The notes below the pieces were generated by a model. That model ran no database searches. It saw nothing but the letters and a program-made list of their open reading frames with translations, and was not told the DNA's origin. A DNA stretch of 38,050 nt from assembly GCA_013816805.1 (NCBI GenBank), contig JACDDS010000004.1, positions 1 to 38,050 on the forward strand, read 5' to 3'. The stretch is from Chitinophagales bacterium (lineage in GTDB: Bacteria; Bacteroidota; Bacteroidia; Chitinophagales; UBA10324). The translations under genes and the position numbers were made by a program. Shown here one piece after another: positions 107 through 17,831 of the stretch (the stretch's first letter is position 1; every line of letters begins with the position of its first letter).

Positions 107-277
107 CTATGAATGGGGAAGCCTACACTTGGATATTAAGTCATATTGCATTTCGGCAATAGTCTTTTTGTCGCCTTTAGAAGTCGGTATTGTTCCACTA
201 ACAGTTTTCGTGTCTTCCGATACTTCAATGAAAGTGTCAAAATAATTTGTCGTATGGAGTTTTGTCTTGTCAGTCAT
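107..277 (-). pseudogene. Truncated DUF6157-like protein gene (N-terminal fragment)
   Basis: A 56-codon reading frame starts at an ATG at 277 and stops at 107. Its first 50 residues, beginning MTDKTKLHTTNYFDTFIEV and continuing through an AEMQYDLISK segment, resemble the start of a small conserved bacterial family that I recall as DUF6157, whose members are usually well over 100 residues. After ISK the similarity stops and the frame ends six codons later, so most of the gene is missing. It begins 25 bases downstream (in minus-strand sense) of the repeat element at 303-501, the position expected for the next gene of a cassette-like array. The family function is unknown. The family name is from memory and moderately sure; the truncation is a firmer reading. 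Confidence 0.55.
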
Positions 278-302
278 TTTTTGAACAGTGTTTTGTTTGC
301 TT

Positions 303-501
303 GCCGCTAACGGTTAAGGCCTGGCGAGGGGCTGGAAATTTATAATGTCAAGCCTGGAACCAAAGCCGAATATTGTTACTATAGATGAAGATAACAACTA
401 AAGCTAAATTCATAACGTCGTGCTGGAACTTCTGCTGATATTGATTTGTAGCGGATTGTACTTCCGTCAGCCAGCCTATTACCAAACCTATTGTTAGCGG
501 C
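303..501. repeat. Cassette-boundary-like element, copy 1
   Basis: A 199-bp non-coding element is bounded by a perfect 9-bp inverted repeat: GCCGCTAAC at 303-311 and GTTAGCGGC at 493-501. It shares internal blocks with the element at 1087-1357: TATAATGTCAAGCCTGGAAC at 341-360 (18 of 20 match the other copy) and GATTTGTAGCGGATTGT at 443-459 (16 of 17). It lies just downstream of the NIPSNAP-like gene and just upstream of the DUF6157-like fragment. The layout of inverted-repeat ends, variable centre and position between unrelated same-strand genes resembles an integron attC site. However, the ends do not fit the classical GTTRRRY core, so a true attC function is inference only. Confidence 0.6.
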
Positions 502-573
502 TGTAATGTCTATCAGTCAAACAGCGTAAATAAGAATCACCTAAAATACGTTGTCAACTAAATTCTTTAACCA

Positions 574-1017
574 TTATTTTATCAAATCCATCCAATCTTT
601 TAGCGTTTCAGTTGGAATCACTAAAGTCGCTAAACTTTCAATAAAAGAAAGTATAGCAGTCCGTGGCCCGTTTTTCCAATCATCACTTCCATAAAAAGCA
701 TCTTCAGATTTTTGTCTGTACCCTAAGTTTTTAAAAGAGCGGATTACAAAATAAGTGTTCTCGTCATGGAGTGAAGCACCGTGTGCACCAACATTTATTT
801 CCCATTTTCTTAGAAGAGGTAATGATTGTGTAACATAAACATCGTGAAACTTGTCTCTTGAGCCGGGCTTGAGATTTAAAATTAATATTTTAATTGTCAT
901 ATCCATTGTCTTATGTTGTGATGTATCACTAAATGACGATTTGAAAACTGTTGATCGTCCTACCGAGTATTCCGAAAAAAATAATATTAGTGTCAAGATT
1001 ATCAAAGTAGTCCTCAT
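574..1017 (-). CDS. Secreted NIPSNAP-like protein
   Basis: A 147-residue protein. The first 20 or so residues (MRTTLIILTLILFFSEYSVG) form a plausible signal peptide or membrane anchor, followed by a short Ser/Thr-rich stretch and a domain of about 100 residues starting near TIKILILNLKPGSRDKF. That domain looks like NIPSNAP or a related dimeric alpha-beta barrel family: a predicted first strand, a helix with SLPLLRKW, then strands around ENTYFVIRSF and an FYGSDDW segment. The reading frame is open another 119 codons upstream, but that part is translation of the repeat element at 1087-1357, so the ATG at 1017 is preferred. A shorter start at MDMTIK would remove the signal peptide. It lies between two copies of the boundary element, as a cassette gene would. 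Enzymatic role unknown. Confidence 0.65.
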   Translation of the reverse strand: MRTTLIILTLILFFSEYSVGRSTVFKSSFSDTSQHKTMDMTIKILILNLKPGSRDKFHDVYVTQSLPLLRKWEINVGAHGASLHDENTYFVIRSFKNLGYRQKSEDAFYGSDDWKNGPRTAILSFIESLATLVIPTETLKDWMDLIK

Positions 1018-1086
1018 TTTGTATTTTTTTACAAAAATGTCTGTCAATGCTTTTGCTTGTTGATAATTGTTATGCTGCAAATTATA

Positions 1087-1357
1087 GCCTCTAACGGTAC
1101 GGCTTTGTGCAGGCATGGGATTTGAAAAACGTTCGCCTGGAACCGCTGCTGATTGAAAAACAAATGTATAAGGAGTATTGCTGCAGTTGGGGGGTTTTAT
1201 AATGTCCAGCCCGGGACTGCAGCTTGGTTTTATTTTGTTGATGAAAATAGGAACTTTTGCTTGGCTTTGTTCGTCAGTCGAAACATAAACTGATAGCGAT
1301 TTGTAGCCGATTGTTCCAACGTCAAGCCCCACTTGCAGCAATACTTTTGTTAGCTGC
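1087..1357. repeat. Cassette-boundary-like element, copy 2
   Basis: A 271-bp element between the VOC gene and the NIPSNAP-like gene. Its ends are GCCTCTAAC (1087-1095) and GTTAGCTGC (1349-1357), an imperfect inverted repeat (7 of 9) equivalent to the ends of the copy at 303-501. Shared internal blocks are at 1198-1217 and 1298-1314. A third block, CTGGAACCGCTGCTGATTG near 1137, corresponds to one near 424 in copy 1 but sits on the other side of the 1198 block, so the internal blocks are rearranged as well as diverged. The centre differs in length and content. It has no convincing coding capacity; the open minus frame through it is incidental. Confidence 0.6.
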
Positions 1358-1401
1358 ACACCCTTCTCTGTCAATGATAAAGCTATTCAATATTTAAAGG
1401 A

Positions 1402-1812
1402 TTAAATCACTTCGTAAAACGTAAGAAGATTTCGGTGATGGTCTAAGGCAGGAAATTCTCTGTTACCCCACGGTTGTGCTTCAACAACTGTGTCAGGATT
1501 ATAAATTACCCCTTGCGTTTTATATTCTTCAAACAATTCGTCCACATCTTGAACTTCTACTCTGCAACTGGCAGTGCCGGCTAAGAAACTTTCTGCTCCA
1601 CTGCAAATTGGGTCTGCGGCTAAAGAAGCTCCTTTATTTTTCCATGTTTCATCACCTGACTTCCATAAATGTATTTCAACATCATCTCGAACTACTATAG
1701 CAAAGTCTTCATCATGGTGACGAACTCTAAAGCCCAACTTTGTGGTATAGAATTCAATTGATTGTTTTATGTCCTGAACCGGAAGGGCAGGAATAGTTTT
1801 TTTCATTTTCAT
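1402..1812 (-). CDS. VOC-family (bleomycin-resistance-like) protein
   Basis: A complete 136-residue cytoplasmic protein of the vicinal oxygen chelate superfamily. It has the two beta-alpha-beta-beta-beta modules typical of glyoxalase/bleomycin-binding folds: module 1 with IPALPVQDIKQSIEFYTTKL and module 2 from about residue 80 with CRVEVQDVDELFEEYK, ending in a WGNREFPALDHHRNLLTFYE segment like the C-terminus of Ble-type binding proteins. Such proteins commonly act as dimers that sequester glycopeptide antibiotics; whether this one does, or instead is an enzyme, cannot be read from the sequence. Start at 1812, with a second ATG two codons on. It is the first gene downstream of the recombinase remnant and is followed by the boundary element at 1087-1357. 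Confidence 0.85.
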   Translation of the reverse strand: MKMKKTIPALPVQDIKQSIEFYTTKLGFRVRHHDEDFAIVVRDDVEIHLWKSGDETWKNKGASLAADPICSGAESFLAGTASCRVEVQDVDELFEEYKTQGVIYNPDTVVEAQPWGNREFPALDHHRNLLTFYEVI

Positions 1813-1867
1813 GCTTATTGCTTTAAACTTTCTTTTTTTTTAATGAACTGCACACAACAAGATTTGT

Positions 1868-2553
1868 TCACCAGCGGACGCAGGAATACGTTAACAGTAA
1901 AATAGTCTTTTGCTTAAGATTACTTACGCAGTTTATTATTTCCGCAATTTCTTCTTTGTTAAATACGCCGGGTAATTGCAAAGGTTTTTTTGGTCTTGGT
2001 ATATCATAGAAAAACTTCTCTCTGTGCAATACTTGTTCAAAGTAAAACTTCAGAGCATTTATACGGCTATGTATGGCATTTTCTGATAACCCTTTCTTTA
2101 TACAATACAACAAATACCGTTGCAAATGCTGCGGCTGCAGGTTTTGTACCGGGAGTTTACCAATCACCTGCAGCAATTGTGCGAATTCATTACAATAAGT
2201 GCGAATGGTAGAAGGGCTGTATGCTTTTAATACAAGCTGCCGTAAGAATCTCTGCAACTCCTGTTTATTATTTTCACTCGCTGATTTTATTGCGGATTTT
2301 TGTGGTATGGCGTTATTGGTTTTATTTCAGGGGTGTGTTGAACAGGCAATTTACATTTGATACGGTTTTCAGTTGTATCTGGTATCGTGCAGCCATGCAA
2401 GGTTTCACTCCATTCCGCGCCTCGTCCTTTTTGCAACCGTTTATTGAATACTGCGTTGAATTCAAACTTTATTAAAATGCAGTTTTTATTCTCATAAAAA
2501 ATCGTTTCATAAGTTATGGATGACATTTTAATGAATAAATTACTTCTATTCAT
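1868..2553 (-). pseudogene. Tyrosine recombinase remnant (frameshifted, catalytic domain lost)
   Basis: Two overlapping minus-strand frames together make the N-terminal part of a Bacteroidota site-specific recombinase. The first (2553 to 2287) carries the N-terminal segment with KGRGAEWSETLHGCTIPDT, which resembles the 'GARW...W.VP' arm of these integrases. The second (open from about 2327 to 1868) carries the SAM-like core-binding domain with AYSPSTIRTYCNEF and ends LKQKTILLLTYSC, just where the catalytic domain should begin with a GLR.SE motif. The frame change lies near 2290-2330. None of the catalytic residues (R, H, R, Y) is present; a weak out-of-frame continuation may extend to about 1850. 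The second frame has no ATG, only a TTG at 2257, as expected for an internal piece. Non-functional as a recombinase. Confidence 0.8.
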
Positions 2554-3870: not shown

Positions 3871-4549
3871 GGAGGTAAAAGTAGGATGGTAGGAGCAATG
3901 GTGAATAAATTATTTTCATACTGCAGGTAGTGGCAAGAGTCTGCTGTTATTGCTTGTTCATATTTTTCAGAGGTCAATTTATATTCGATTTGAGCGTGGT
4001 TCTCTCCTTTAGGAGTCGATTCTGTTTTTAGAATGCCGGCCTGTTAAGTGTTGAGCTTAATCTGCTTTAGAAGCAGCGGTAAGCAACAAATTATTGAACA
4101 CTGTTCTCTTTTTTAGGATTGGCGTAAGTGCGAGCAATTTTAAACATCCTTAATAATTTTTCAAATCACTGTAACAATTTTCTTTTTAAATTTCTTTTGG
4201 CTTGATCCAAAAGAAACAAAAATCAAGGCTGTCGAAAAACGGAAGCGCTACCCAACCGCTCACCGGAAAAATGAAAGCTTTTAGTGAGCCGTACCTTTAG
4301 TTAAGTGGCCTCTTTGATGTCACACATTTTTCCTTGCTCTCGCTACAGGGCGATGCTCATGCTTCTGTTTTCCGAATGGCGGCGTATAATCAATTATAAG
4401 CACGGTTCTCCTCTTTAGTAGTTAGAGTAAGCAGCGATTTTCTTCAGGATTACAGAGCGGTAAACTCCATGTAAGAGTTGGATTTTGGGCCAGCAATTTA
4501 ATTTAGAATCAAAATTAGCGCGGAAATTCATGCGCTATACATAAATAAA
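3871..4549. other. Non-coding stretch with structured repeats
   Basis: About 680 bases contain no credible gene on either strand. Three loosely similar segments near 3987, 4096 and 4392 share a GTTCTC...TTTAG core and look like degenerate repeats. The strongest structure is the 26-base hairpin at 4191-4216. A second inverted pair, with 12 of 14 positions complementary, joins 4233-4246 to 4361-4374. I see no promoter, RNA gene or ORF with recognisable similarity here. Confidence 0.5.
4191..4216. repeat. Perfect 10-bp-stem hairpin repeat
   Basis: TTTCTTTTGG (4191-4200) and CCAAAAGAAA (4207-4216) are perfect reverse complements around a six-base CTTGAT loop. Downstream, ATCAAGGCT recapitulates part of the loop in inverted form. 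From memory, similar CTTTTGG...CCAAAAG intergenic hairpins followed by ACAAAAATCAAG recur in Bacteroidota genomes, so this is probably one member of a dispersed family. No second copy is present in this window. Confidence 0.6.
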
Positions 4550-4581
4550 AAAGCCACTTCGAATAAATTCGAAATGGCTTT
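4550..4581 (-). terminator. Intrinsic terminator of the T9SS beta-helix gene
   Basis: The arms AAAGCCACTTCGAA (4550-4563) and TTCGAAATGGCTTT (4568-4581) pair over 14 positions with a single A/C mismatch. Read on the minus strand the stem is followed by a T-rich tract (TTTTTTATTTAT), 16 bases after the stop codon at 4598. Geometry and position fit Rho-independent termination of the minus-strand unit. Confidence 0.8.
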
Positions 4582-4597
4582 CCTAAACCAACGGTGA

Positions 4598-6208
4598 TTA
4601 TTTTGCTATAGTCAATTTGATCATTTGATTTTCATCTCCTGTTTTTATTAAGAGAAGATAAAGGCCGGATGCAAGATGTGTATTTATATTAAAGGTATGG
4701 CTGCCTGCACCCATATTTTCGTCCAGCACTTCACTAAGCACGCGACCAGCAAGGTCGGTGATTTCGATATTAACGTGGTTGCCTTTTAGAAGGTTGAGAT
4801 TCAGTGTTGCCTGGGTTGTCATGGGATTGGGATAAAGATTAATTTCTGAAATTGATTTTGGATCGTGAACAGCTGTATATGCCGTATTTCCGGGTGTCCA
4901 GTTTGTCCATCCGCTTGTCCAGTCAGAGTCACCGAATGCACCGCGATAGCTCACTGCTTCAAAGAAAGGATCAGTGAGGTTGGTATTCGTGAAATCTGCA
5001 CCTGTCAATGCCGGGGATCCAATAAGTGGCATTGCATTAGGACCAGCAAGATTAAACGGATCAGTTAGCATGAGGTCAGTATTATTTGCGTATGTGGCAT
5101 TATTATATGCCGGAGTGCCAAACCAGGTGCTGATATCAAAGGTGCTTCCCGCGACTACTTCAAAATTGGCGGTGCAGCCTGCAATAATTGTGTTACGAAC
5201 CTGTAATTGATCCGCAAGAGCATTTGCTTCCGCTGCAGGTCCATCAATCATTAATCCCGTGGGATATGCCATCAGGATAGTATTATAAATATCCTGCTGC
5301 GTATTTCTTCTGAGATGGGCAGCTCTTTTAAAGCTGCCGTTAATACTCGTGGTTGCAGTAACACGCGGACCAGCAATGGTTACATTCGAAAAAGTTGCTT
5401 TGGTAATTGGAATGTCTGCTGAACCAGTGGCGTCATTATCTGATTCAAATCCATTTGATCCGCTGACGTCCGCAATATTAGGATCTCTTAAACCATAGAG
5501 GAATTGCAGTTTTCCGCCGAAACCGTTATCGGTATCGAAATCATCATCGAGCCCGCGAAATGCAATAAGGTGTTTTGCATTTACGGTTCCTCCGAAAAAC
5601 TCATATGAATCATCACCTGAATAACTCACCTGGATGTGATCGAGAATGGTTCCCCTGCCAACACCACCGCAGGTTAAGCCATTGATCTCACTGTTGGGTT
5701 GAAAAGCGATTCCCGGAAACTCAATGCGTACATATCTTATGATGCCGGAGTTATCATTATCATCAGGAGTAGCACCACCGCCGTAGGTTCCATTACCGAG
5801 CCCGTCTTCGATACCTCCTTCAATAAGTGCCTCACCGCCTGGTTGATTAATAGTGGCTTTTCCTAAAAGGACAACGCCCCCCCAATCACCGTAAGTACGG
5901 AAACTTTGAGGCCCGTTAGAAGTAAAAACAATAGGCTCACCAGGAGTGCCATCAGCTATCACTTTGCAGCCGCGGGTAACTACCAGCGATCCCTTTGATG
6001 CCTTGTCGCCCTTTATCAGCGTGCCAGGTTCTATGGTTAATGTAGCGCCATTGATTACATAGATAAATCCTTTCATGAAATAGACATTGCTTTTTGTCCA
6101 GGTAGTATTGGAAGTAATGTATCCTGATACCGTATCTATGGGCGATTGTGCAAATGATTTTACAACAATCAAAGAGCTCATTGTGAGTAGTATAAAACAT
6201 TTTTTCAT
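4598..6208 (-). CDS. Secreted beta-helix-like protein with T9SS type A sorting domain
   Basis: A 536-residue protein with signal peptide MKKCFILLTMSSLIVVKSFA, a long body of repeated short strands (for example ITSNTTWTKSNVYFMKGFIYV, ATLTIEPGTLIKGDKASKGSL, GDWGGVVLLGKA, EFFGGTVNAKHLIAFRGLDDD) that suggests a right-handed beta-helix, and a C-terminal domain of about 80 residues beginning ISEINLYPNPMTTQATLN and ending GLYLLLIKTGDENQMIKLTIAK. The last is the T9SS type A sorting signal (Por secretion tail), so the mature protein is expected on the surface or released. It starts 118 bases after the TonB-dependent receptor stop on the same strand and probably shares its transcript; the terminator at 4550-4581 closes the unit. 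Many homologues exist in Bacteroidota but I know no established substrate. Confidence 0.85.
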   Translation of the reverse strand: MKKCFILLTMSSLIVVKSFAQSPIDTVSGYITSNTTWTKSNVYFMKGFIYVINGATLTIEPGTLIKGDKASKGSLVVTRGCKVIADGTPGEPIVFTSNGPQSFRTYGDWGGVVLLGKATINQPGGEALIEGGIEDGLGNGTYGGGATPDDNDNSGIIRYVRIEFPGIAFQPNSEINGLTCGGVGRGTILDHIQVSYSGDDSYEFFGGTVNAKHLIAFRGLDDDFDTDNGFGGKLQFLYGLRDPNIADVSGSNGFESDNDATGSADIPITKATFSNVTIAGPRVTATTSINGSFKRAAHLRRNTQQDIYNTILMAYPTGLMIDGPAAEANALADQLQVRNTIIAGCTANFEVVAGSTFDISTWFGTPAYNNATYANNTDLMLTDPFNLAGPNAMPLIGSPALTGADFTNTNLTDPFFEAVSYRGAFGDSDWTSGWTNWTPGNTAYTAVHDPKSISEINLYPNPMTTQATLNLNLLKGNHVNIEITDLAGRVLSEVLDENMGAGSHTFNINTHLASGLYLLLIKTGDENQMIKLTIAK

Positions 6209-6326: not shown

Positions 6327-9182
6327 TTAAAAGTTGAAACTAAGCCCGGCAGAAATTACTCTTCCCGTAGAAACATTTATTATTTGCTTATCATTAGCTG
6401 CGCGGAATTTACCATCATGGTTTTCATCCTGGTAGAATACACCATCCGTTGCAAATACATCCTGCATACTGATCCGTACGCTTCCGTTTTTAAAAATCTT
6501 TTTAGACACCTGGATGTCCATAACCGGACGCGGAGCTTCATAAATATCGAGGTACTCACTTGACCCAACTGCAATAATTCTTCTCCCGATCTGATTAAAG
6601 AAGACGCTGAATCCTAATCCTGAAATGGGTTCATTGTAGGTTAACCCCAGGTTAATGATGTAAGGTGATTGACCTTGTAAGCTGCGTGTAGAATCAGCTG
6701 AGTTTGCAATAGACCGCACATCCACTTTCGAATTAATGTAAGCAAGATTCGCGGAAAATATAATGTTGCTGAACTGTTTCCATCGGCTTATTCCTTGCAG
6801 AAAATCCAGGTTTTTTCTTAATTCAAACTCGACTCCAATGTTGCTGGCAGCAGTAACATTTCGGTAGGAACGGATGTAGCCACCGCTCGATATAAAATCT
6901 ATGGTCTGCTCAATGGGCTCATTAAACTTTTTATAAAAAACACTTGCAGAAACTAATTGACCATTCCCAAAGAAATGTTCGGCGCGAAAATCATAATTAA
7001 AGATATTAGTTCTCCGCAGGGAATCATTTCCAATCACTACTGAGGTGGTTGCAAAGTCGTAGAATGAAAAAGGTGCCAGCTCGCGGAATTCAGGACGGGC
7101 AACTGTCTTAGAAAAGCTAAGGCGAAGATTGGTTTTATCATCAACTCCGTAAACCAGGTTGGCAGAAGGTAAAAAGTCAAAGGGCAGTTTCGAAAAATCT
7201 GAAGATTTAGTATTCACCTCGATCGGCGCATTCGCGTAATCAAATGATTTTAATTGCTGATTAAAGAATTCAAAGCGTGCGCCCCATACAATCCTGAAAT
7301 TTAAAGGCAGCTTATTATCGAACATAAGGTAATAAGCGGCAAGCTGACTTGCTCCTGTATAAGCATCGGATGGATTCGTGATCTCGTCAATGCTAAATCC
7401 GGCGGTTCCGATATTTTTCGGATCAAACAGTTGACCGGGAGGTAACGCCAAGATTGCATTCGGATTTTGATTTTCTGAAAAGAAGGCAGTAATATTTGTT
7501 ACTGTATAACCTAAAACACGAGCATTGAAGGTACGGTCCCGAGCCTGGTAATAAAGTCCTGCTTTTGCGCTGCTTTTATTCTTCAGAAAGTTAAATGGAA
7601 AACTTATATCCGTAGATTCACTGTAAACGTTTTCACCGAGGGTGGAAAAGAATTTACCCGCCAGCGATGGTGAAGCGGAACCAAATGGAATATAAGCGAG
7701 GAAAGAGGTATCGTTTCCATCATTTGGATAGATATTTTTATTATAAAAAAGTTTCCTGAAATCGGGTTCTGAGCGACCAATGTGTGCGTAGCCTAATTCC
7801 CAATGCAATTTTATTCCGTGTTCTTCGAAGTAATGATCTCCGGCAAGCTGACTGTTAAAAAGGGTATTGGAAACAAAGTCGTAAGCATAGTTTCGCACAT
7901 AATAATTCTGTTCAAAATTAGTACCACCACGAATAATTGCGGAGTTCGTAGAATTTACAGTGTAGGAATTTTTAAAGAGTATTTTATTTCTATCTGAAAA
8001 CTTATACCCAAGATTCACCATCAATCCTGTCAGAATATTATTACTGTATGTCGAATCATTATATCGATAAAGTGCGCCGGTATCTGAGAAATTAAAATCC
8101 TGACGAGTAATTAAATTATAGCGGTTGGAATTATTATAGGTTACAGAAACGATGCCTCCAAAGTCATTTTTAAAGAGCTTGGTATTTAATCCCCCTGATA
8201 TTTGAAATGCCATATTGGGAAGGGTAGAATTTCGTTTATTATAACCCCAATCATTAGACAGCATCTTTGAATAGTTAATGATCTCGCCCTGCGAAGCATT
8301 TTGAACCGTTTCTGTATTAGGAAAATTATTGGGAAGAATTCGTTTTCCGTTATCTATTCCAAGCCAGTCCGTATTCCCACCGGCATAGCCATATCGGGAT
8401 TTAAACGTTGAGGAAGTATTATACCCTCCCGAAATATTCACATTCAAAAAATTAGATTCCGGAATATCCCGTGTATTTACCTGTATCAGGCCACCGGCAA
8501 AATCACCAGGTAAATCGGGTTGGGCGGTTTTGGTTATTATAATATTATCTACAAGGTTTGAAGGAATAAGGTCGAACGTAAAATTTTTTCGATCAGCTTC
8601 CGTGCTGGGAAGTGAAGTACCGTTTATCATTGCTGAATTATAACGGTCACTCAACCCGCGAATGATCGCAAACTTATTCTCTGAAAGTGTAACGCCGCTT
8701 ACTCTTTTAAGGGCTTCGGCAGTATTCTTATCCGGTGTTTTACGTATAAGATCAGATGAGATGCCGTCGGAAATAGTACTGCTGTTTTTTTGCATCACCA
8801 ATAGTGAATTGATATTCTCTTTCACTAATTCTGTTCTTATTACCACTTCCTGCAATTCTTTGGTAATGCCGGATAAAGCAATATCCAGATTGGTGGTCTG
8901 GCCAGCCTTTACTTCTACCTTTTCAATTACTTTGCTTTGATAGCTGATATAGGAAGCTACCACGTTATAAACACCGGGAGAAATATTGCTTATGGTAAAA
9001 TGCCCGTCGATATCGGAAGCTGCTCCTTTGCTTTGGTCACTTTCGAGGTAAACATTTCCTACAATAATATCATCGTTGTTAGCAGCATCGGCAATATGTC
9101 CGGAAATACTTCCTGTCTGAGCATATATAAAGGTATTCAACAACAGTAGCAGGGAAAGGGTCTGAAAAAATGATTTTAGCAT
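6327..9182 (-). CDS. TonB-dependent outer-membrane receptor
   Basis: A full-length receptor of 951 residues. Signal peptide MLKSFFQTLSLLLLLNTFIYA; residues about 22-105 form a carboxypeptidase-regulatory-like beta sandwich (GSISGHIADAANNDDIIVGN to LDIALSGITKELQEV); the plug follows from about 110 to 235 with IRKTPDKNTAEALKRVSGV and IRGLSDRYNSAMINGTSLP; then a 22-strand-type barrel ends in the aromatic-terminated RVISAGLSFNF typical of outer-membrane insertion. It imports a ligand using TonB energy. No SusD partner lies next to it; instead a T9SS beta-helix protein follows, so the pair may act together on an unknown ligand. The gene is divergent from the DUF2158-like gene across a 198-base region. 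Confidence 0.92.
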   Translation of the reverse strand: MLKSFFQTLSLLLLLNTFIYAQTGSISGHIADAANNDDIIVGNVYLESDQSKGAASDIDGHFTISNISPGVYNVVASYISYQSKVIEKVEVKAGQTTNLDIALSGITKELQEVVIRTELVKENINSLLVMQKNSSTISDGISSDLIRKTPDKNTAEALKRVSGVTLSENKFAIIRGLSDRYNSAMINGTSLPSTEADRKNFTFDLIPSNLVDNIIITKTAQPDLPGDFAGGLIQVNTRDIPESNFLNVNISGGYNTSSTFKSRYGYAGGNTDWLGIDNGKRILPNNFPNTETVQNASQGEIINYSKMLSNDWGYNKRNSTLPNMAFQISGGLNTKLFKNDFGGIVSVTYNNSNRYNLITRQDFNFSDTGALYRYNDSTYSNNILTGLMVNLGYKFSDRNKILFKNSYTVNSTNSAIIRGGTNFEQNYYVRNYAYDFVSNTLFNSQLAGDHYFEEHGIKLHWELGYAHIGRSEPDFRKLFYNKNIYPNDGNDTSFLAYIPFGSASPSLAGKFFSTLGENVYSESTDISFPFNFLKNKSSAKAGLYYQARDRTFNARVLGYTVTNITAFFSENQNPNAILALPPGQLFDPKNIGTAGFSIDEITNPSDAYTGASQLAAYYLMFDNKLPLNFRIVWGARFEFFNQQLKSFDYANAPIEVNTKSSDFSKLPFDFLPSANLVYGVDDKTNLRLSFSKTVARPEFRELAPFSFYDFATTSVVIGNDSLRRTNIFNYDFRAEHFFGNGQLVSASVFYKKFNEPIEQTIDFISSGGYIRSYRNVTAASNIGVEFELRKNLDFLQGISRWKQFSNIIFSANLAYINSKVDVRSIANSADSTRSLQGQSPYIINLGLTYNEPISGLGFSVFFNQIGRRIIAVGSSEYLDIYEAPRPVMDIQVSKKIFKNGSVRISMQDVFATDGVFYQDENHDGKFRAANDKQIINVSTGRVISAGLSFNF

Positions 9183-10626: not shown

Positions 10627-11598
10627 TTAATCGAAAGACTGATTTGATTGGTCGGAAAGCTTGAGCAGTTCCGCATATTCTTTAGGAGTGAGATCATCAA
10701 AAAAGAAATTTATTGGATCAATTTTCGCTCCGTTTAATATTACTTCATAATGCAGGTGAGGAGCTGTGGACTTTCCGGTACTGCCAACATATCCTATAAT
10801 ATCACCCCGCTTTATATGTTGCCCTTGCTTTACAGAAATTCTGCTTAAGTGGCAATAATGTGTTTGATACCCCACCATATGAGCTAATGTTACATTACGT
10901 CCATAACCCCGGTCACCGTATTCAACGATCAATACTACACCGTTGCCTGTTGCATGGACAGGGGTGCCCTCAGGTGCAGCAAAGTCGAGACCTTCATGCA
11001 TCTTCGGGATTTTATAAATGGGATCGATCCGCATCCCAAAGCCTGAAGCAAGATGGGAGACTTCCTGACTTGAAATAGGCTGAATGGCAGGAATAGAAGC
11101 AAGCACTTCTTCTTTCTTTTGGATCATTAGTGTAATCTGGTCGTAAGATTTAGACTGTATATAAAGCTGCCTTTTGATCTTATCTAGCTTTTGTGCAGTG
11201 CTCAGCATAAGTTCGCTGTTATCAAAATTCATCAGGTCTTTGTATTTGTTAGCCCCACCGGAACCTGCCTGCCTGATGCTGGATGGTATGGGTTCTGCTT
11301 CAAAAATAACCCTGTAAATATTGTCATCCCGGTCCTGAAGATCAGCCATTACCTGGTTTACCTGGTCCAATTTTTTATTAAGCACATCGTACTCAAATTG
11401 TATCTGCGATAATTCACGTCTCAATTCTTTTTCTTTGGGTGAATCCAAATAGGCATATGCCAGGTATACGATGATAAATGCGAAAACAAGTGTTGCAGAA
11501 ATAAGACCTATCAGCTTCCATATACGATTCCGCAACGGTTCTTCATACTTTTCATACCCTAGTGAATGAGTATTGTAATAATATTTTACCTTTTTCAT
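10627..11598 (-). CDS. M23-family (LytM-type) metallopeptidase, membrane anchored
   Basis: A 323-residue protein. A cytoplasmic tail of about 28 residues is followed by one transmembrane helix (about 29-50), a periplasmic coiled-coil region (55-165) and a C-terminal peptidase domain. Zinc and catalytic motifs are present: H201-x3-D205 in MHEGLD and H281-x-H283 in PHLHYE, with the glycine-rich GFGMRIDP leader at 186-193. Such proteins cut peptidoglycan cross-links or regulate those that do. The intact motifs suggest an active enzyme. It is divergent from alaS, an arrangement I recall as common in Bacteroidota. An 18-bp palindrome at 11646-11663 sits in the shared upstream region. Confidence 0.92.
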   Translation of the reverse strand: MKKVKYYYNTHSLGYEKYEEPLRNRIWKLIGLISATLVFAFIIVYLAYAYLDSPKEKELRRELSQIQFEYDVLNKKLDQVNQVMADLQDRDDNIYRVIFEAEPIPSSIRQAGSGGANKYKDLMNFDNSELMLSTAQKLDKIKRQLYIQSKSYDQITLMIQKKEEVLASIPAIQPISSQEVSHLASGFGMRIDPIYKIPKMHEGLDFAAPEGTPVHATGNGVVLIVEYGDRGYGRNVTLAHMVGYQTHYCHLSRISVKQGQHIKRGDIIGYVGSTGKSTAPHLHYEVILNGAKIDPINFFFDDLTPKEYAELLKLSDQSNQSFD

Positions 11599-11645
11599 GG
11601 TTCGGTGCTCTGCTATTATTCATTAATTTTGTGCCCCTCATCACA

Positions 11646-11663
11646 GCTTAACAATTGTTAAGC
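11646..11663. promoter_or_regulatory. 18-bp perfect palindrome between M23 gene and alaS
   Basis: GCTTAACAATTGTTAAGC is a perfect inverted repeat with no spacer. It lies 48 bases upstream of the M23 start (11598) and 61 bases upstream of the alaS start (11724). An operator for a dimeric regulator is possible, as is a chance AT-rich palindrome. There is no T-run making it a terminator. Confidence 0.35.
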
Positions 11664-11723
11664 AATAACCAATATTTCAAAAATAAGTAAATAGAATTAT
11701 TAAAACGAGATTCTTCGGTTGAT

Positions 11724-14459
11724 ATGATGAATGCAAAAGAAATAAGAAAAACATTTATTGATTTCTTTAAATCAAAAGGCCATTCTATTGTACCTGGTGC
11801 TCCTCTTGTAATAAAAAACGATCCTACGCTGATGTTCACTAATGCGGGAATGAACCAGTTTAAAGATATTTTTCTTGGTGAAAAGAGTCCATCTTTCCGT
11901 CGTGTTGCCGATACACAAAAATGTTTACGCGTCTCTGGTAAACATAATGATCTGGAAGAAGTAGGAATTGATACCTATCATCATACGATGTTTGAAATGC
12001 TGGGCAACTGGTCGTTTGGCGATTCAAAAGCTGAAAATGGAATCGGAGTCGGTTATTTTAAAAAGGAAGCTATCCAATGGGCATGGGAACTATTAACGAA
12101 AGTCTGCAACCTTAATCCGGACCGTTTGTATGTAACCATTTTTGAAGGAGATACCGGAGAGAATATTGAAAAGGATGAGGAAGCATTGGCTTGTTGGAAA
12201 GAATGGATTGATGAGGATCGCATATTACCATTTAATAAGAAAGATAACTTCTGGGAGATGGGCGAATCAGGGCCTTGTGGTCCGTGTTCGGAAATTCACT
12301 TTGACATTCGCCCTGATGAGGAGCGCAAAAAAGTGGATGGAAAGAGTTTAGTAAATAAAGGTGACCCGCAGGTAATAGAGATCTGGAATTTAGTATTTAT
12401 CCAGTTTAACCGTTTAATGAATGGCTCGCTGCAACCGCTTCCTGCAAAGCATGTGGATACCGGGATGGGCTTCGAAAGGTTGACACGCGTACTGCAAAAT
12501 AAATTTTCTAATTACGATACGGATATTTTTCAGCCGCTGATCCGCTTCATTGAAAAAATTTCCGGCATTCAATATGGCAATTCGGAAAAGAGTGATATAG
12601 CCATGCGGGTGATAAGTGACCATATCCGCGCCATCGCTTTTGCAATTGCTGACGGACAGCTTCCATCTAACACGGGAGCAGGTTATGTGATCAGAAGAAT
12701 TTTACGGCGTGCCGTGAGGTATTATTACAGTTTTCTGAATATACAAACACCGCTTTTGTATAAAATGATACCTCAGCTTGCTGAGGAATTTAGTGATGTG
12801 TTTCCTGAAATAAAAATGCAGCAGGAATTTATTTCAAAAGCAGTTGAAGAAGAGGAGAAGACCTTCCTGAAAACGCTCGAAAAAGGGCTTCACCGTCTCT
12901 CAAATTATTTCGAAATTCAGTCGCAAAAAGCTGATGCCGAACCTGCAGAAAAAAATGTCTCAGGAAGTACTTCTGAAAAGAGACCACCAACAGATTTAAA
13001 TCATAAACTGCCATATACGATAGAGGGTAAATTTGCATTCGAGCTGTATGATACTTTTGGTTTTCCACTGGATTTAACCCGGCTTATTGCCTCTGAAAGA
13101 AACTGGGATATTGATGAGGAAGGATTTAATGATGAATTAAAAAAACAAAAGGAGCGCTCCCGCACTGCTTCCGAAATTGTAAGCGAAGACTGGATCGAGA
13201 TTAATAAAACCGATAAGATCGAATTTGTCGGTTATGATTCACTGCAATCAATAACTTCAGTGGTTAAATACAGAAAGCAAAAATCTAAGGAAAAGGAAGT
13301 ATTTCAGCTTGTATTAGACAAAACTCCTTTCTATGCGGAAAGCGGAGGGCAGGTAGGCGATAAAGGAAAATTAGTTTTTGGTGATGAAGAAGTAGAAGTG
13401 CTGAATACGAAAAAGGAAAATGACCTTATCATTCATTTTGTAAATAGGTTTCCCGGATCTTTTAATGAAACAGTAAATGCAAAGGTGAATCCTGAATTGC
13501 GTGCCAGTATTATGAACAACCATACTGCAACACACCTGCTCCATGCTGCGTTAAGAAAAATTTTAGGCACTCATGTTCAGCAAAAGGGATCACTTGTTTC
13601 TGCAGGTTACCTGCGATTTGACTTTTCTCATTTTTCTAAAGTGAATAAACAGGAGTTACAGCAAATTGAGGAACTGGTAAATAAAAAAATCAGGGAGAAC
13701 ATTTTGAGACAGGTAGATATAATGTCTGTGGAAGAAGCAATGAATACTGGAGCAATGGCGCTCTTTGGTGAAAAATACGGTGACCAGGTTAGGGTAATAA
13801 CATTCGATTCAGGTTATTCACGGGAATTGTGTGGTGGCACTCATGTTCCGGCAACAGGAGCCATTGGCTATTTTAAAATTGTGTTGGAGACGGCTGTTGC
13901 AGCAGGTGTTCGTCGCATCGAAGCTATCACGGGTGAGGCAGCAACTCAGCTTATCAGCAAAACTTTTGATCGCCTTGATTATATTTCCGAACTGTTGGGT
14001 AATGCGAAAGATGTGGAGAAAAGCATTCAGAATCTTCAATCTCAAAGTGAAGTGTTTAAAAGACAGATAGAATCCTATAACATGCTGAAAATAAAACAGT
14101 TAAAGGATTCATTGAAACAAACAGTGGAAGTAATAAACGGGTATAAATTTATTGGGACAGTTACGGATCTTGATTCTGTAGAAGCTTTAAAAAAGCTTTC
14201 TTATGACCTTAGAAATGAGGTTTCAGATCTTGTATTTGTTGGAGGCGCAGCTATTGATGGAAAAGCAAACTTATGTGTTATAATTGCTGATAGTTTAGTG
14301 AAAGAAAGGTCAATGGATGCCGTTAAAATTATCCGTGATATCAGTAAAGAGATTAATGGCTCAGGAGGGGGACAGAAATTTTTTGCCTCTGCTGGTGGCT
14401 CAGATTCTTCGGGACTTACAAGAGCTATCGAAGCAGCAAGAAATTATCTCAAAAACTAG
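11724..14459 (+). CDS. alaS: Alanyl-tRNA synthetase
   Basis: A full-length 911-residue enzyme (the E. coli protein is about 876) that charges tRNA-Ala with alanine in the cytoplasm. The N-terminal class II catalytic core is clear (FFKSKGHSIVPGAPLV, MFTNAGMNQFKDIF, GESGPCGPCSEIHFD). The editing domain carries the zinc/deacylation motifs H600-x3-H604 (NHTATHLLH) and C703-GG-T-H707 (CGGTH). The C-Ala region ends with GSGGGQKFFASAGG. A hydrophilic insertion of about 30 residues around 410-440 explains part of the extra length. The start could be at 11724 or the next ATG at 11727. Convergent with the CNNM gene. Confidence 0.98.
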   Translation: MMNAKEIRKTFIDFFKSKGHSIVPGAPLVIKNDPTLMFTNAGMNQFKDIFLGEKSPSFRRVADTQKCLRVSGKHNDLEEVGIDTYHHTMFEMLGNWSFGDSKAENGIGVGYFKKEAIQWAWELLTKVCNLNPDRLYVTIFEGDTGENIEKDEEALACWKEWIDEDRILPFNKKDNFWEMGESGPCGPCSEIHFDIRPDEERKKVDGKSLVNKGDPQVIEIWNLVFIQFNRLMNGSLQPLPAKHVDTGMGFERLTRVLQNKFSNYDTDIFQPLIRFIEKISGIQYGNSEKSDIAMRVISDHIRAIAFAIADGQLPSNTGAGYVIRRILRRAVRYYYSFLNIQTPLLYKMIPQLAEEFSDVFPEIKMQQEFISKAVEEEEKTFLKTLEKGLHRLSNYFEIQSQKADAEPAEKNVSGSTSEKRPPTDLNHKLPYTIEGKFAFELYDTFGFPLDLTRLIASERNWDIDEEGFNDELKKQKERSRTASEIVSEDWIEINKTDKIEFVGYDSLQSITSVVKYRKQKSKEKEVFQLVLDKTPFYAESGGQVGDKGKLVFGDEEVEVLNTKKENDLIIHFVNRFPGSFNETVNAKVNPELRASIMNNHTATHLLHAALRKILGTHVQQKGSLVSAGYLRFDFSHFSKVNKQELQQIEELVNKKIRENILRQVDIMSVEEAMNTGAMALFGEKYGDQVRVITFDSGYSRELCGGTHVPATGAIGYFKIVLETAVAAGVRRIEAITGEAATQLISKTFDRLDYISELLGNAKDVEKSIQNLQSQSEVFKRQIESYNMLKIKQLKDSLKQTVEVINGYKFIGTVTDLDSVEALKKLSYDLRNEVSDLVFVGGAAIDGKANLCVIIADSLVKERSMDAVKIIRDISKEINGSGGGQKFFASAGGSDSSGLTRAIEAARNYLKN

Positions 14460-14506: not shown

Positions 14507-15808
14507 TCAAGCATTTTCCATTTTCCTCGCAAGAACTTTATCTACTCGTTTTCCATCCATATCCATTACCTCGAACTGGTGATTGCGGAAAAAAAAATGA
14601 TCCGCCGGCTTAGGAATTCGTCCGAGCTGATGCATGATGAAGCCACCAAGGGTATTGTAGTTTCCGGTATCTTCTTCCGAAATATCCGGCAAACCAAGCA
14701 GCTCACTCCATTCATAAGTTTGCATAACACCATCTATTAGCCAGGAACCATCTTTTCTCTGTACAGCCTCATCCCGGATGTGATGCTTTGCAAGTGGAAT
14801 ATTCCCAAAGATGGATTCCACCACATCATGAAGGGTAACAATTCCTTCAACTGATCCATACTCATTTACAACAAGCGTTACATGAACCCCACTGTTCCTG
14901 AAGTTTTCAAGCACTTCAAGTGCTGGCATGGATTCCGGTACGTAGACCGGCTGTTTCATAATGGTACGGATGTCCAGAAACTTTTTTTTACTTAACTGAA
15001 CAAGGATATCCTTAATGGATACGATGCCCAATATTTTATCCATGCTATTATCACAGACAGGAAAATTTGTGTGGATACTCTGTTCTATAAGATGCTGCAC
15101 TTCACTTGTAGTGGCATCTACATCTATCCAGATAATTTCCTGGCGGTGCGTCATTAGGGTATTCACATTGCGGTCTGCGGTGCGAAAAATGCTGCGCATC
15201 ATATCTGATTCCTGCTTTTCAAGTACTCCATGCTCAGAGCTTTGCTGGATCAGGTGCTCAAGTTCTTCTTCAGTTACAGGTGGTTCACTTTGTTCCCGGA
15301 AGCGTAAAAGGCGAAGAATAAATTTTGTTGAAATATTCAGCAACCAGATAAATGGTGCCGCTACATAATAAACAACATTCATCACCGGACCAAGAATTAA
15401 CGCAATAGGCTCAGGTCTTGAAAGGCCAATAGTTTTAGGAACCAGCTCACCAACAACCATAGTCAAAAAGGTGGTAAATATCACGATCACAATTACTCCA
15501 AGTATGCCTGAATATTCTTTTAAAAAATCGTACCTGGCAAAAAAGGCAGACACATCACCTGAAAAAGATTCCCCTCCGTATAATCCGGCTACAATGCTAA
15601 CGGCCGTCATACCGATTTGTACAGTAGGTAAGAATTTCTGAGGGTCATTTGAAAGCTTCAGTGCAATTTTTGCGCCGCGGCTTCCTTTTTTAGCTAACCG
15701 CTCGAGCCGTACTTTTCTGGAAGAAACCAGTGATATCTCCGACATAGCAAATACGCCATTCAGAATAACAAGCAATAGAAGAATTCCTAACCGTGCAAGT
15801 GTTTCCAT
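14507..15808 (-). CDS. CNNM/CorC-family membrane protein with CBS domains
   Basis: A 433-residue protein of the hemolysin/CorC (CNNM, DUF21) family. The N-terminal half has about four hydrophobic helices, with LVILNGVFAMSEISLVSSRK and TMVVGELVPKTIGL typical of DUF21. Next come two CBS domains (LMTHRQEIIWIDVDATTSEV to PVCDNSMDKILGIVSIKDIL, and IMKQPVYVPESMPALEVLEN to LVVNEYGSVEGIVTLHDVVE) and a C-terminal CorC/HlyC domain with WLIDGVMQTYEW and YNTLGGFIMHQLGRIP. Members are proposed magnesium/cobalt exporters; in flavobacteria the relative GldE assists gliding, which I cannot assign here. The frame is open to a TTG at 15904, but METLARLG at 15808 starts the first helix sensibly. Confidence 0.92.
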   Translation of the reverse strand: METLARLGILLLLVILNGVFAMSEISLVSSRKVRLERLAKKGSRGAKIALKLSNDPQKFLPTVQIGMTAVSIVAGLYGGESFSGDVSAFFARYDFLKEYSGILGVIVIVIFTTFLTMVVGELVPKTIGLSRPEPIALILGPVMNVVYYVAAPFIWLLNISTKFILRLLRFREQSEPPVTEEELEHLIQQSSEHGVLEKQESDMMRSIFRTADRNVNTLMTHRQEIIWIDVDATTSEVQHLIEQSIHTNFPVCDNSMDKILGIVSIKDILVQLSKKKFLDIRTIMKQPVYVPESMPALEVLENFRNSGVHVTLVVNEYGSVEGIVTLHDVVESIFGNIPLAKHHIRDEAVQRKDGSWLIDGVMQTYEWSELLGLPDISEEDTGNYNTLGGFIMHQLGRIPKPADHFFFRNHQFEVMDMDGKRVDKVLARKMENA

Positions 15809-17606: not shown

Positions 17607-17679
17607 GCGGGAGTAGCTCAGTTGGTAGAGCACAACCTTGCCAAGGTTGGGGTCGCGGGTTCAAGTCTCGTCTCCCGCT
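17607..17679 (+). tRNA. tRNA-Gly (GCC)
   Basis: A complete cloverleaf of 73 bases: the acceptor GCGGGAG pairs with CTCCCGC at the 3' end, D arm GTAGCTCAGTTGGTAGAGC, anticodon stem CAACCTT...AAGGTTG with anticodon GCC at 17640-17642, and T arm containing GGTTCAAGTC. The discriminator base is T; CCA is not encoded. Confidence 0.97.
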
Positions 17680-17745: not shown

Positions 17746-17831
17746 GCCTTGGTGGTGGAACTGGTAGACACGCAGGACTTAAAATCCTGTCGCCCGAAAA
17801 GGCGGTGCGGGTTCGATTCCCGCCTGAGGCA
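17746..17831 (+). tRNA. tRNA-Leu (UAA)
   Basis: A class II tRNA of 86 bases with a long variable arm (TCGCCCGAAAAGGCGG). The acceptor GCCTTGG pairs with CTGAGGC using two G-U pairs, the anticodon stem is CAGGA/TCCTG and the anticodon TAA lies at 17780-17782. The T arm contains GGTTCGATTC and the discriminator is A. It lies 66 bases after tRNA-Gly, probably on the same transcript. Confidence 0.97.

Follow-up and report, generated by a model that had tools for sequence, protein, structure and literature searches.

The DNA considered here, hereafter called the window, comprises the first 38,050 nucleotides of contig JACDDS010000004.1 (C4) of a Chitinophagales genome (assembly GCA_013816805.1), and its beginning raises a simple question: what kind of system sets three unrelated small minus-strand genes in a row, spaces them with two diverged copies of one non-coding element and has a recombinase remnant at its upstream end? 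The first-pass annotation, which described this arrangement, suggested an integron-like cassette array with boundary elements that depart from the classical attC core, and considered that it might be a Bacteroidota-specific system. Our analysis, which is based on sequence comparison and structure prediction, indicates that the locus is very probably that end of an integron-like cassette array which lies nearest the recombinase; arrays of this type are widespread in Bacteroidota and appear to be driven by a recombinase different from the integron integrase IntI.

Many further copies of the element were found, at the junctions of short, unrelated, same-strand genes in the arrays read and close to one family of recombinases. 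A profile trained on five copies from the window's own genome and iterated over 20 other stretches and the window gave 131 matches at E<=0.01 in these sequences, with one orientation per locus and 29 consecutive matches in a single locus (L052). When a later profile was run on 2.35 Mb of fetched loci, among them those used for training, it matched 361 times at E<=1e-3, and a dinucleotide shuffle of the same DNA gave no match. DNA similarity to the second element of the window (1087-1357) was detected in 46 of 298 genomes of the order. The elements occur in two main forms, of about 195 and 130 nt. Read in the direction of the genes, the two ends are AAC and CGTT in each of the 34 aligned short copies, and AACA is present in 33. 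The attC core is described, in a passage of PMC8876359, as the 7-bp GTTRRRY, in which the crossover falls between the first base and the second. Among 282 core boxes of the present family GTTR was found in 274 and GTTRRRY in only 22, so the remark that the ends are off the classical core is confirmed, and the crossover at G|TT itself (the bar marks the cut) fits. The base at position 8 of the core site, an A in 95% of the boxes, is nearly always mismatched.

The elements are also predicted to fold, with -24 to -25 kcal/mol compared to -15 for random windows, and their consensus stem consists of 14 pairs, 11 of them with compensatory changes. The bottom strand folds better than the top strand in 197 of 274 sites (p 4e-17). 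There, G-T pairs take the place of several A-C positions of the stem and of the constant, mostly A-C, mismatch in the R box. A search of Rfam with the elements of the window, L052 and L262 returned no match. The shared nonamer GTTAGCGGC was tried as a site marker on its own and rejected, as it was not enriched: the window's genome has 14 such sites and 17 of the reversed control. The signal resides in the whole element. In L052, a partial element paired with a full one occurs as a block four times (4521-4880, 6832-7191, 13484-13843 and 14721-15080) with near-equal scores, which may point to cassette duplication.

If a gene and its element form one unit, as in integrons, one would expect complementarity between the two ends of a gene interval and none between the two ends of one element. 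The interval ends were found to be reverse-complementary over about 12 nt with one fixed mismatch. In 95 intervals, the match rate after GTT was 89-94% at positions 1-6, 73% at position 7, 1% at position 8 and 59-83% at positions 9-12, followed by background. All seven of the first seven positions matched in 56 of the 95 intervals (shuffled mean 1.2, maximum 6), and in none of 113 comparisons of the two ends of one element. The test was repeated on loci of other families picked by a covariance model of the element (R1), with nine of 167 R1 matches set aside, namely six opposite-strand shadows of the same palindrome and three partial or odd matches. Here seven of seven positions matched in 60 of 122 intervals and at least six in 99 (shuffled mean 0.9, maximum 6), compared with one seven-position match in 150 for the ends of a single element. 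The idea that the two ends of the element itself represent a transposon's inverted repeat was accordingly rejected.

These results bear on a first alternative, in which the elements are interspersed non-coding repeats, similar to miniature inverted-repeat transposable elements (MITEs) or repetitive extragenic palindromic (REP) sequences, which were spread by a transposase and lie between genes by chance, the recombinase being a bystander. Scattered or partial copies do exist, as in the window's own genome, and sites without recombinase occur in a number of genomes (see below). However, a self-inserting repeat would bear matched ends of its own, while here it is the gene interval that does. Nor would such a repeat be expected to show one orientation in every array locus read (the six palindrome shadows apart), tightly packed single open reading frames (ORFs), an attI motif or the transfer of a cassette with exact borders. 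We thus regard this alternative as highly improbable.

The content of the intervals agrees with cassettes. Outside the window, 181 of 216 intervals match at six or seven of seven positions, and 178 of these contain an ORF of at least 60 residues. The longest ORF runs in the predicted direction in 175 of the 178, with a median length of 217 residues, covering 91% of the cassette and leaving median margins of 33 nt before and 19 nt after it. Each unit thus holds one gene and one site in the same orientation. When 100 of the 175 forward cassette ORFs were scanned against Pfam, 62 families were counted by program, each in at most two proteins. Among the matches listed are relatives of antiphage genes (PADLOC matches) and of mercury-lyase and aminoglycoside-modifying genes. 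An ordinary operon with structured intergenic RNA elements would also display co-directional genes, short gaps and elements that fold. Nevertheless, this themeless gene content is not what an operon would hold, and the complementarity of interval ends would have no role in it.

Comparison of 207 intervals from 60 loci yielded nine pairs with an identity of 65% or more across no less than 70% of the shorter member, one of which is nearly identical. Its members come from two orders, one from Chitinophagaceae bacterium UBA1931 (L090, on a 3.1-Mb contig) and the other from Flavobacterium enshiense DK69 (L164, on a 272-kb contig), and they share 98.1% identity over 1444 columns. The similarity runs from the CGTT before the gene to the CGTT after the element, and both flanks are unrelated, which also counts against an operon; of all the alternatives considered, the operon is the least probable and close to negligible. 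Of two further pairs, one (75% identity) has the same CG|TT borders, and the other (84%) has the gene part in common and not the element, which is not fully explained. Cassettes would appear, from these borders, to move between genomes as gene plus element.

Regarding the enzyme, seven array loci or neighbouring stretches carry one kind of tyrosine recombinase, of 315-406 residues. The array recombinase has about 380 residues and an extra N-terminal domain, and it is without the insert of IntI. At least 556 relatives were found by scanning a collection of 84,980 species; the best 80 of the 556 were kept, and all 80 are Bacteroidota by title. An alternative that must be weighed here is that a true IntI moves the arrays and the elements are divergent attC sites of classical integrons, given the same cassette logic, a similar site layout and the CG|TT crossover. 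An additional domain around patch III is called defining for the integron integrase in a passage of PMC9668308. According to passages of PMC8138268, this insertion is essential for integron function and yet not fully conserved in an integron-like subgroup, which leaves some room for the alternative. In the present set, the distance from the GKxKDR-type motif to HxLRH is 58-63 residues in 103 of 110 recombinases (those with both motifs found), as compared with a median of 100 (100-341) in 11 IntI and 64-66 in two Xer proteins. Against the NCBIfam IntI model TIGR02249, the seven array-adjacent recombinases score 164-189 bits with a cut-off of 265, and the match is split in two in all seven. The 11 IntI fall into a single clade of a tree of 123 rows (SH-aLRT, the Shimodaira-Hasegawa-like approximate likelihood ratio test, 99), separate from 109 of the 110 array-type recombinases (97), while one (L242) falls outside both; the tree was built by a quick method and rooted on the two Xer-like proteins of the window's genome, with long outgroup branches.

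The best NCBIfam match of all seven recombinases is the XerA model NF040815, under its cut-off, and the scores against the Xer equivalogs likewise stay below the respective cut-offs (XerC 164-202 of 335, XerD 158-194 of 330 and XerA 190-219 of 220 bits). Xer-type recombinases (XerC, XerD and archaeal XerA) similarly consist of a catalytic and a SAM-like domain, but the two Xer-like proteins of the window's genome are only 27-29% identical to the array type, are located elsewhere and do not carry the N-terminal motif. Movement of cassettes by Xer proteins is not known. The predicted structure of the recombinase (mean pLDDT, the predicted local distance difference test, 87; pTM, the predicted template modelling score, 0.65) has IntI4 as its closest solved fold by Foldseek E-value (2a3v, E 2.9e-14), with XerA close behind (4.6e-14). 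The N-terminal domain is predicted to adopt a small beta-beta-alpha-beta-beta-alpha fold, and its motif was found within the first 140 residues of 66 of 110 recombinases, none of 11 IntI and neither of the two Xer-like proteins. Of 36 N-termini, 19 show a weak likeness to Pfam DUF5710 at E<=1 (best 1.1e-5); DUF5710 occurs in single-strand-DNA proteins. No confident solved relative of this domain was obtained with Foldseek (best E 0.55), VIA-align (best Z 4.4) or a sequence profile against the PDB (best E only 0.12). The HARP domain of SMARCAL1 came up at no better than E 2.2 (probability 0.15).

Arrays and recombinases mostly share one geometry. Around the 80 best recombinases, 122 elements lie downstream, all of them turned so that the cassettes run in the same direction as the recombinase and none the other way, and seven lie upstream, with less sequence surveyed downstream (368 kb) than upstream (602 kb). 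By locus, the sequence model finds elements in 41 of the 80, downstream in 36 and upstream only in five. R1, which was run on 32 of the 80 loci, mostly those without a sequence-model match, adds elements in four (L121, L142, L143 and L159; E<=3e-11). In five loci (L154, L155, L158, L166 and L168) the array is on the other side of the recombinase and divergent from it, as in classical integrons. The position of a partner site, corresponding to attI, was predicted from the far end of the first cassette in 37 of the 80 loci, 35 of which were testable. A match at six or seven of seven positions was found in 32 of the 35, and the predicted crossover is 53 to 265 bp past the recombinase stop in 26 of the 32 and further off in six. 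The 18 bases that end at this crossover carry 16.9 bits, with the consensus CGTATATTTATGAG|TT, while random offsets reached a maximum of 4.9. A conserved attI-like site is therefore predicted close behind the recombinase gene, next to it as attI is to the integrase gene, and cassettes may first enter there.

Some plasmids also carry recombinases of this kind. In a plasmid of Chryseobacterium sp. SNU WT5 (L283, NZ_CP041688.1, 8989-17694) the recombinase, annotated as 'site-specific tyrosine recombinase/integron integrase', is followed by four R1 elements, and the array also contains the genes of an IS110 transposase and a group II intron. A plasmid stretch of Chryseobacterium oryzae (L284) carries the recombinase and no site, and a tyrosine recombinase gene there (10957-12899) adjoins an IS91-type transposase. 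The same neighbourhood occurs in plasmid 2 of Aromatoleum aromaticum (L285, 20148-22235), the recombinase of which is 33% identical to the array type. The last two possibly represent a separate IS91-linked branch.

The distribution of sites and recombinase was surveyed in 392 genomes of the phylum, scoring at most seven site and five recombinase candidates per genome, with distances taken from the best places listed and a recombinase threshold of E<=1e-50 to exclude Xer proteins. Sites are present in 180 genomes; 98 have both sites and recombinase, 21 recombinase only, 82 sites only and 191 neither (odds ratio 10.9, p 2e-22). Both are thus widespread in Bacteroidota, which supports part of the earlier suggestion. 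Exclusivity to the phylum is not supported, as outside it sites were sought only in two proteobacterial plasmid stretches with distant recombinase relatives, where none was found at E<=1. True IntI above the NCBIfam cut-off is not rare either (85 of the 296 genomes covered), a point in favour of classical integrons. However, among 86 genomes that match TIGR02249, only G031 belongs to the same class as the window. Among the sites listed, 43 of 110 in recombinase-positive genomes are within 30 kb of the array recombinase, compared to none of 17 within 30 kb of IntI in IntI-positive genomes. Near true IntI, R1 has no match at E<=1 in four loci and one at E 0.13 in a fifth (L277), classical arrays being left unchecked there. 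Taking these results together with the enzyme comparison, classical integrons appear very unlikely as an explanation, if a little less so than chance repeats.

Several observations weigh against an integron-like array driven by this recombinase. Recombinase and sites do not always coincide, as the 21 and 82 genomes with only one of them illustrate. The sequence model finds no site in 39 of the 80 recombinase loci, 21 of which have less than 1.5 kb after the gene; among 56 loci with at least 1.5 kb there, only 33 have a downstream site. In four (L125, L148, L151 and L160), with 7.9 to 10 kb downstream, neither the sequence model nor R1 gave a match. A conserved T-G stem pair favours the top strand, opposite to the bottom-strand trend. 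The distant relative beside an IS91-type transposase, at 33% identity, raises the concern that the recombinase set may mix functions. In the window itself, the ends of the VOC cassette match at only four of seven positions, and R1 gives a single match near the recombinase remnant (1842-1902), a weak one (E 0.034) that lies on the wrong strand.

The integron-like array remains the preferred reading, and its likeness to integrons with IntI, attI and attC, both classical and sedentary chromosomal ones, is extensive. Both have one-direction arrays of single-gene cassettes in which a site follows each gene at its 3' end, crossover in G|TT, a matched R box made by the cassette's own ends, a site predicted to fold with a stem, attI beside the recombinase gene and diverse cargo including defence and resistance genes. 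In contrast, the recombinase of the new type lacks the IntI-specific insert, often has an extra N-terminal domain and is mostly co-directional with the array. Its R box is about 15 nt long with a fixed mismatch and is not GTTRRRY, and its sites are of 130 or 195 nt with near-invariant AACA and CGTT. Since two defining features of strict integrons, the additional IntI domain and the GTTRRRY core, were looked for and not found, the system is filed as integron-like.

As for the mechanism, we propose that the tyrosine recombinase would cut between G and TT in CG|TT, both at the attC-like elements and at the attI-like site near its own gene. A cassette would consist of one gene and the element at its 3' end, and its excision would produce a circle in which the two ends, once joined, restore a single matched R box some 15 nt long (GTTRNNNGCNATTTT). 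Re-insertion of the circle would take place at attI, with the gene directed away from the platform, where it may be expressed from an upstream promoter. We are inclined to see here, with some reservation, a second version of the integron principle, in which a recombinase that does not belong to the IntI clade recognises folded single-strand sites although it lacks the insert regarded as essential for this, perhaps via its N-terminal domain, and which serves as a main route of gene traffic across Bacteroidota orders, with an array also on at least one plasmid.

Reviews and surveys list Bacteroidota among the phyla with integrons, in passages that give no detail. The complete-genome survey with IntegronFinder 2.0 reports one complete integron in Bacteroidetes proper, in Salinibacter ruber, and only In0 in an earlier round (PMC9024848). 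No description of a system like the present one was found in the open-licence PMC literature, mostly judged by title and abstract, which covers few subscription papers and no preprints. Perhaps it was overlooked because the recombinase falls below the IntI model and the sites are off the usual core. If functional, it would amount to a large gene-exchange system that has been missed. It would also allow a test of whether folded-strand recombination depends on the IntI insert, and would open a large pool of cassette genes, including the antiphage, mercury-lyase and aminoglycoside-modifying relatives.

The features of the window locus are collected in the table below.

Table. Features of the array at the start of the window, with the evidence for each.
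Feature	Position	Strand	Evidence and remarks
DUF6157 N-terminal fragment, cassette-gene remnant	107-277	-	56-residue ORF; Pfam DUF6157 E 1.9e-13, profile positions 2-44 of 136
Element 1, attC-like, long form, 3' end of NIPSNAP-like cassette	303-501	-	Full-length profile match 307-501, E 4e-39
Element 1, covariance model match	299-509	-	E 6e-9
Element 1, cores in gene direction	CGTT 309-312; AAC 493-495		
Cassette 2 as putative mobile unit (NIPSNAP-like gene and element 1)	311-1094	-	Predicted crossover CG|TT to CG|TT
Cassette 2 gene, weakly NIPSNAP-like	574-1017	-	147 residues; Pfam NIPSNAP E 0.045, under Pfam cut-off
Element 2, composite of two attC-like sites	1087-1357	-	Separate profile matches 1092-1171 (E 5e-13) and 1174-1357 (E 5e-32)
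Cassette 3 gene, VOC/glyoxalase	1402-1812	-	136 residues; Pfam Glyoxalase E 2.6e-8
Possible decayed attI/first-cassette junction (uncertain)	1851-1885	-	AAC core 1856-1858
Recombinase remnant, SAM-like DNA-binding domain	1868-2257	-	Phage_int_SAM_4 E 8.9e-13; ends at start of catalytic domain
Recombinase remnant, extra N-terminal domain	2287-2553	-	Own ORF; 2344-2502 matches residues 11-64 of intact recombinase, 38% identity, E 9e-4

The description given by the first-pass annotation held for the three genes, with the NIPSNAP likeness being weak, for the recombinase remnant, which lies in two minus-strand pieces, and for the two elements, which have five blocks of 12 to 35 nt in common at 77-92% identity. 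The difference in length between the elements, also pointed out there, is due to the composite nature of element 2, in which 1093-1171 is one end of one site and 1174-1357 is most of another; R1 has no match to it at E<=1. The borders of cassette 2, whose gene-side ends are reverse-complementary at six of seven positions, are predicted by analogy with those seen in the cassette shared by UBA1931 and F. enshiense. The segment 1851-1885 is the best candidate partner for the end of element 2, agreeing at only four of seven positions, and is placed between the recombinase remnant and the first gene, as in intact loci. Positions 1877-2329 are 55% identical to an array-adjacent recombinase, with one internal stop. 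A search of the window's genome revealed no intact recombinase of the array type, and besides the remnant only the two Xer-like proteins. With its recombinase broken, one element composite and one gene truncated, the array appears to be a decaying orphan remnant, and it would therefore be immobile unless assisted in trans or by a copy that the assembly lacks. In having sites without an intact recombinase it resembles CALIN (clusters of attC sites without integrase), although its sites are of the new type and recombinase pieces still adjoin the array.

The genome of the window contains 10 covariance-model matches at E<=0.01. Those on C2, C4, C9, C13 and C19, together with a copy on C25 detected by DNA similarity, are within about 10 kb of contig ends, and those on C1 and C8 are not near them. 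Elements near contig ends are as expected if assembly breaks in arrays, and a larger array may have been split or lost. Finally, two tRNA genes (17607-17679 and 17746-17831, by Rfam match) are present in the window and are unrelated to the array.

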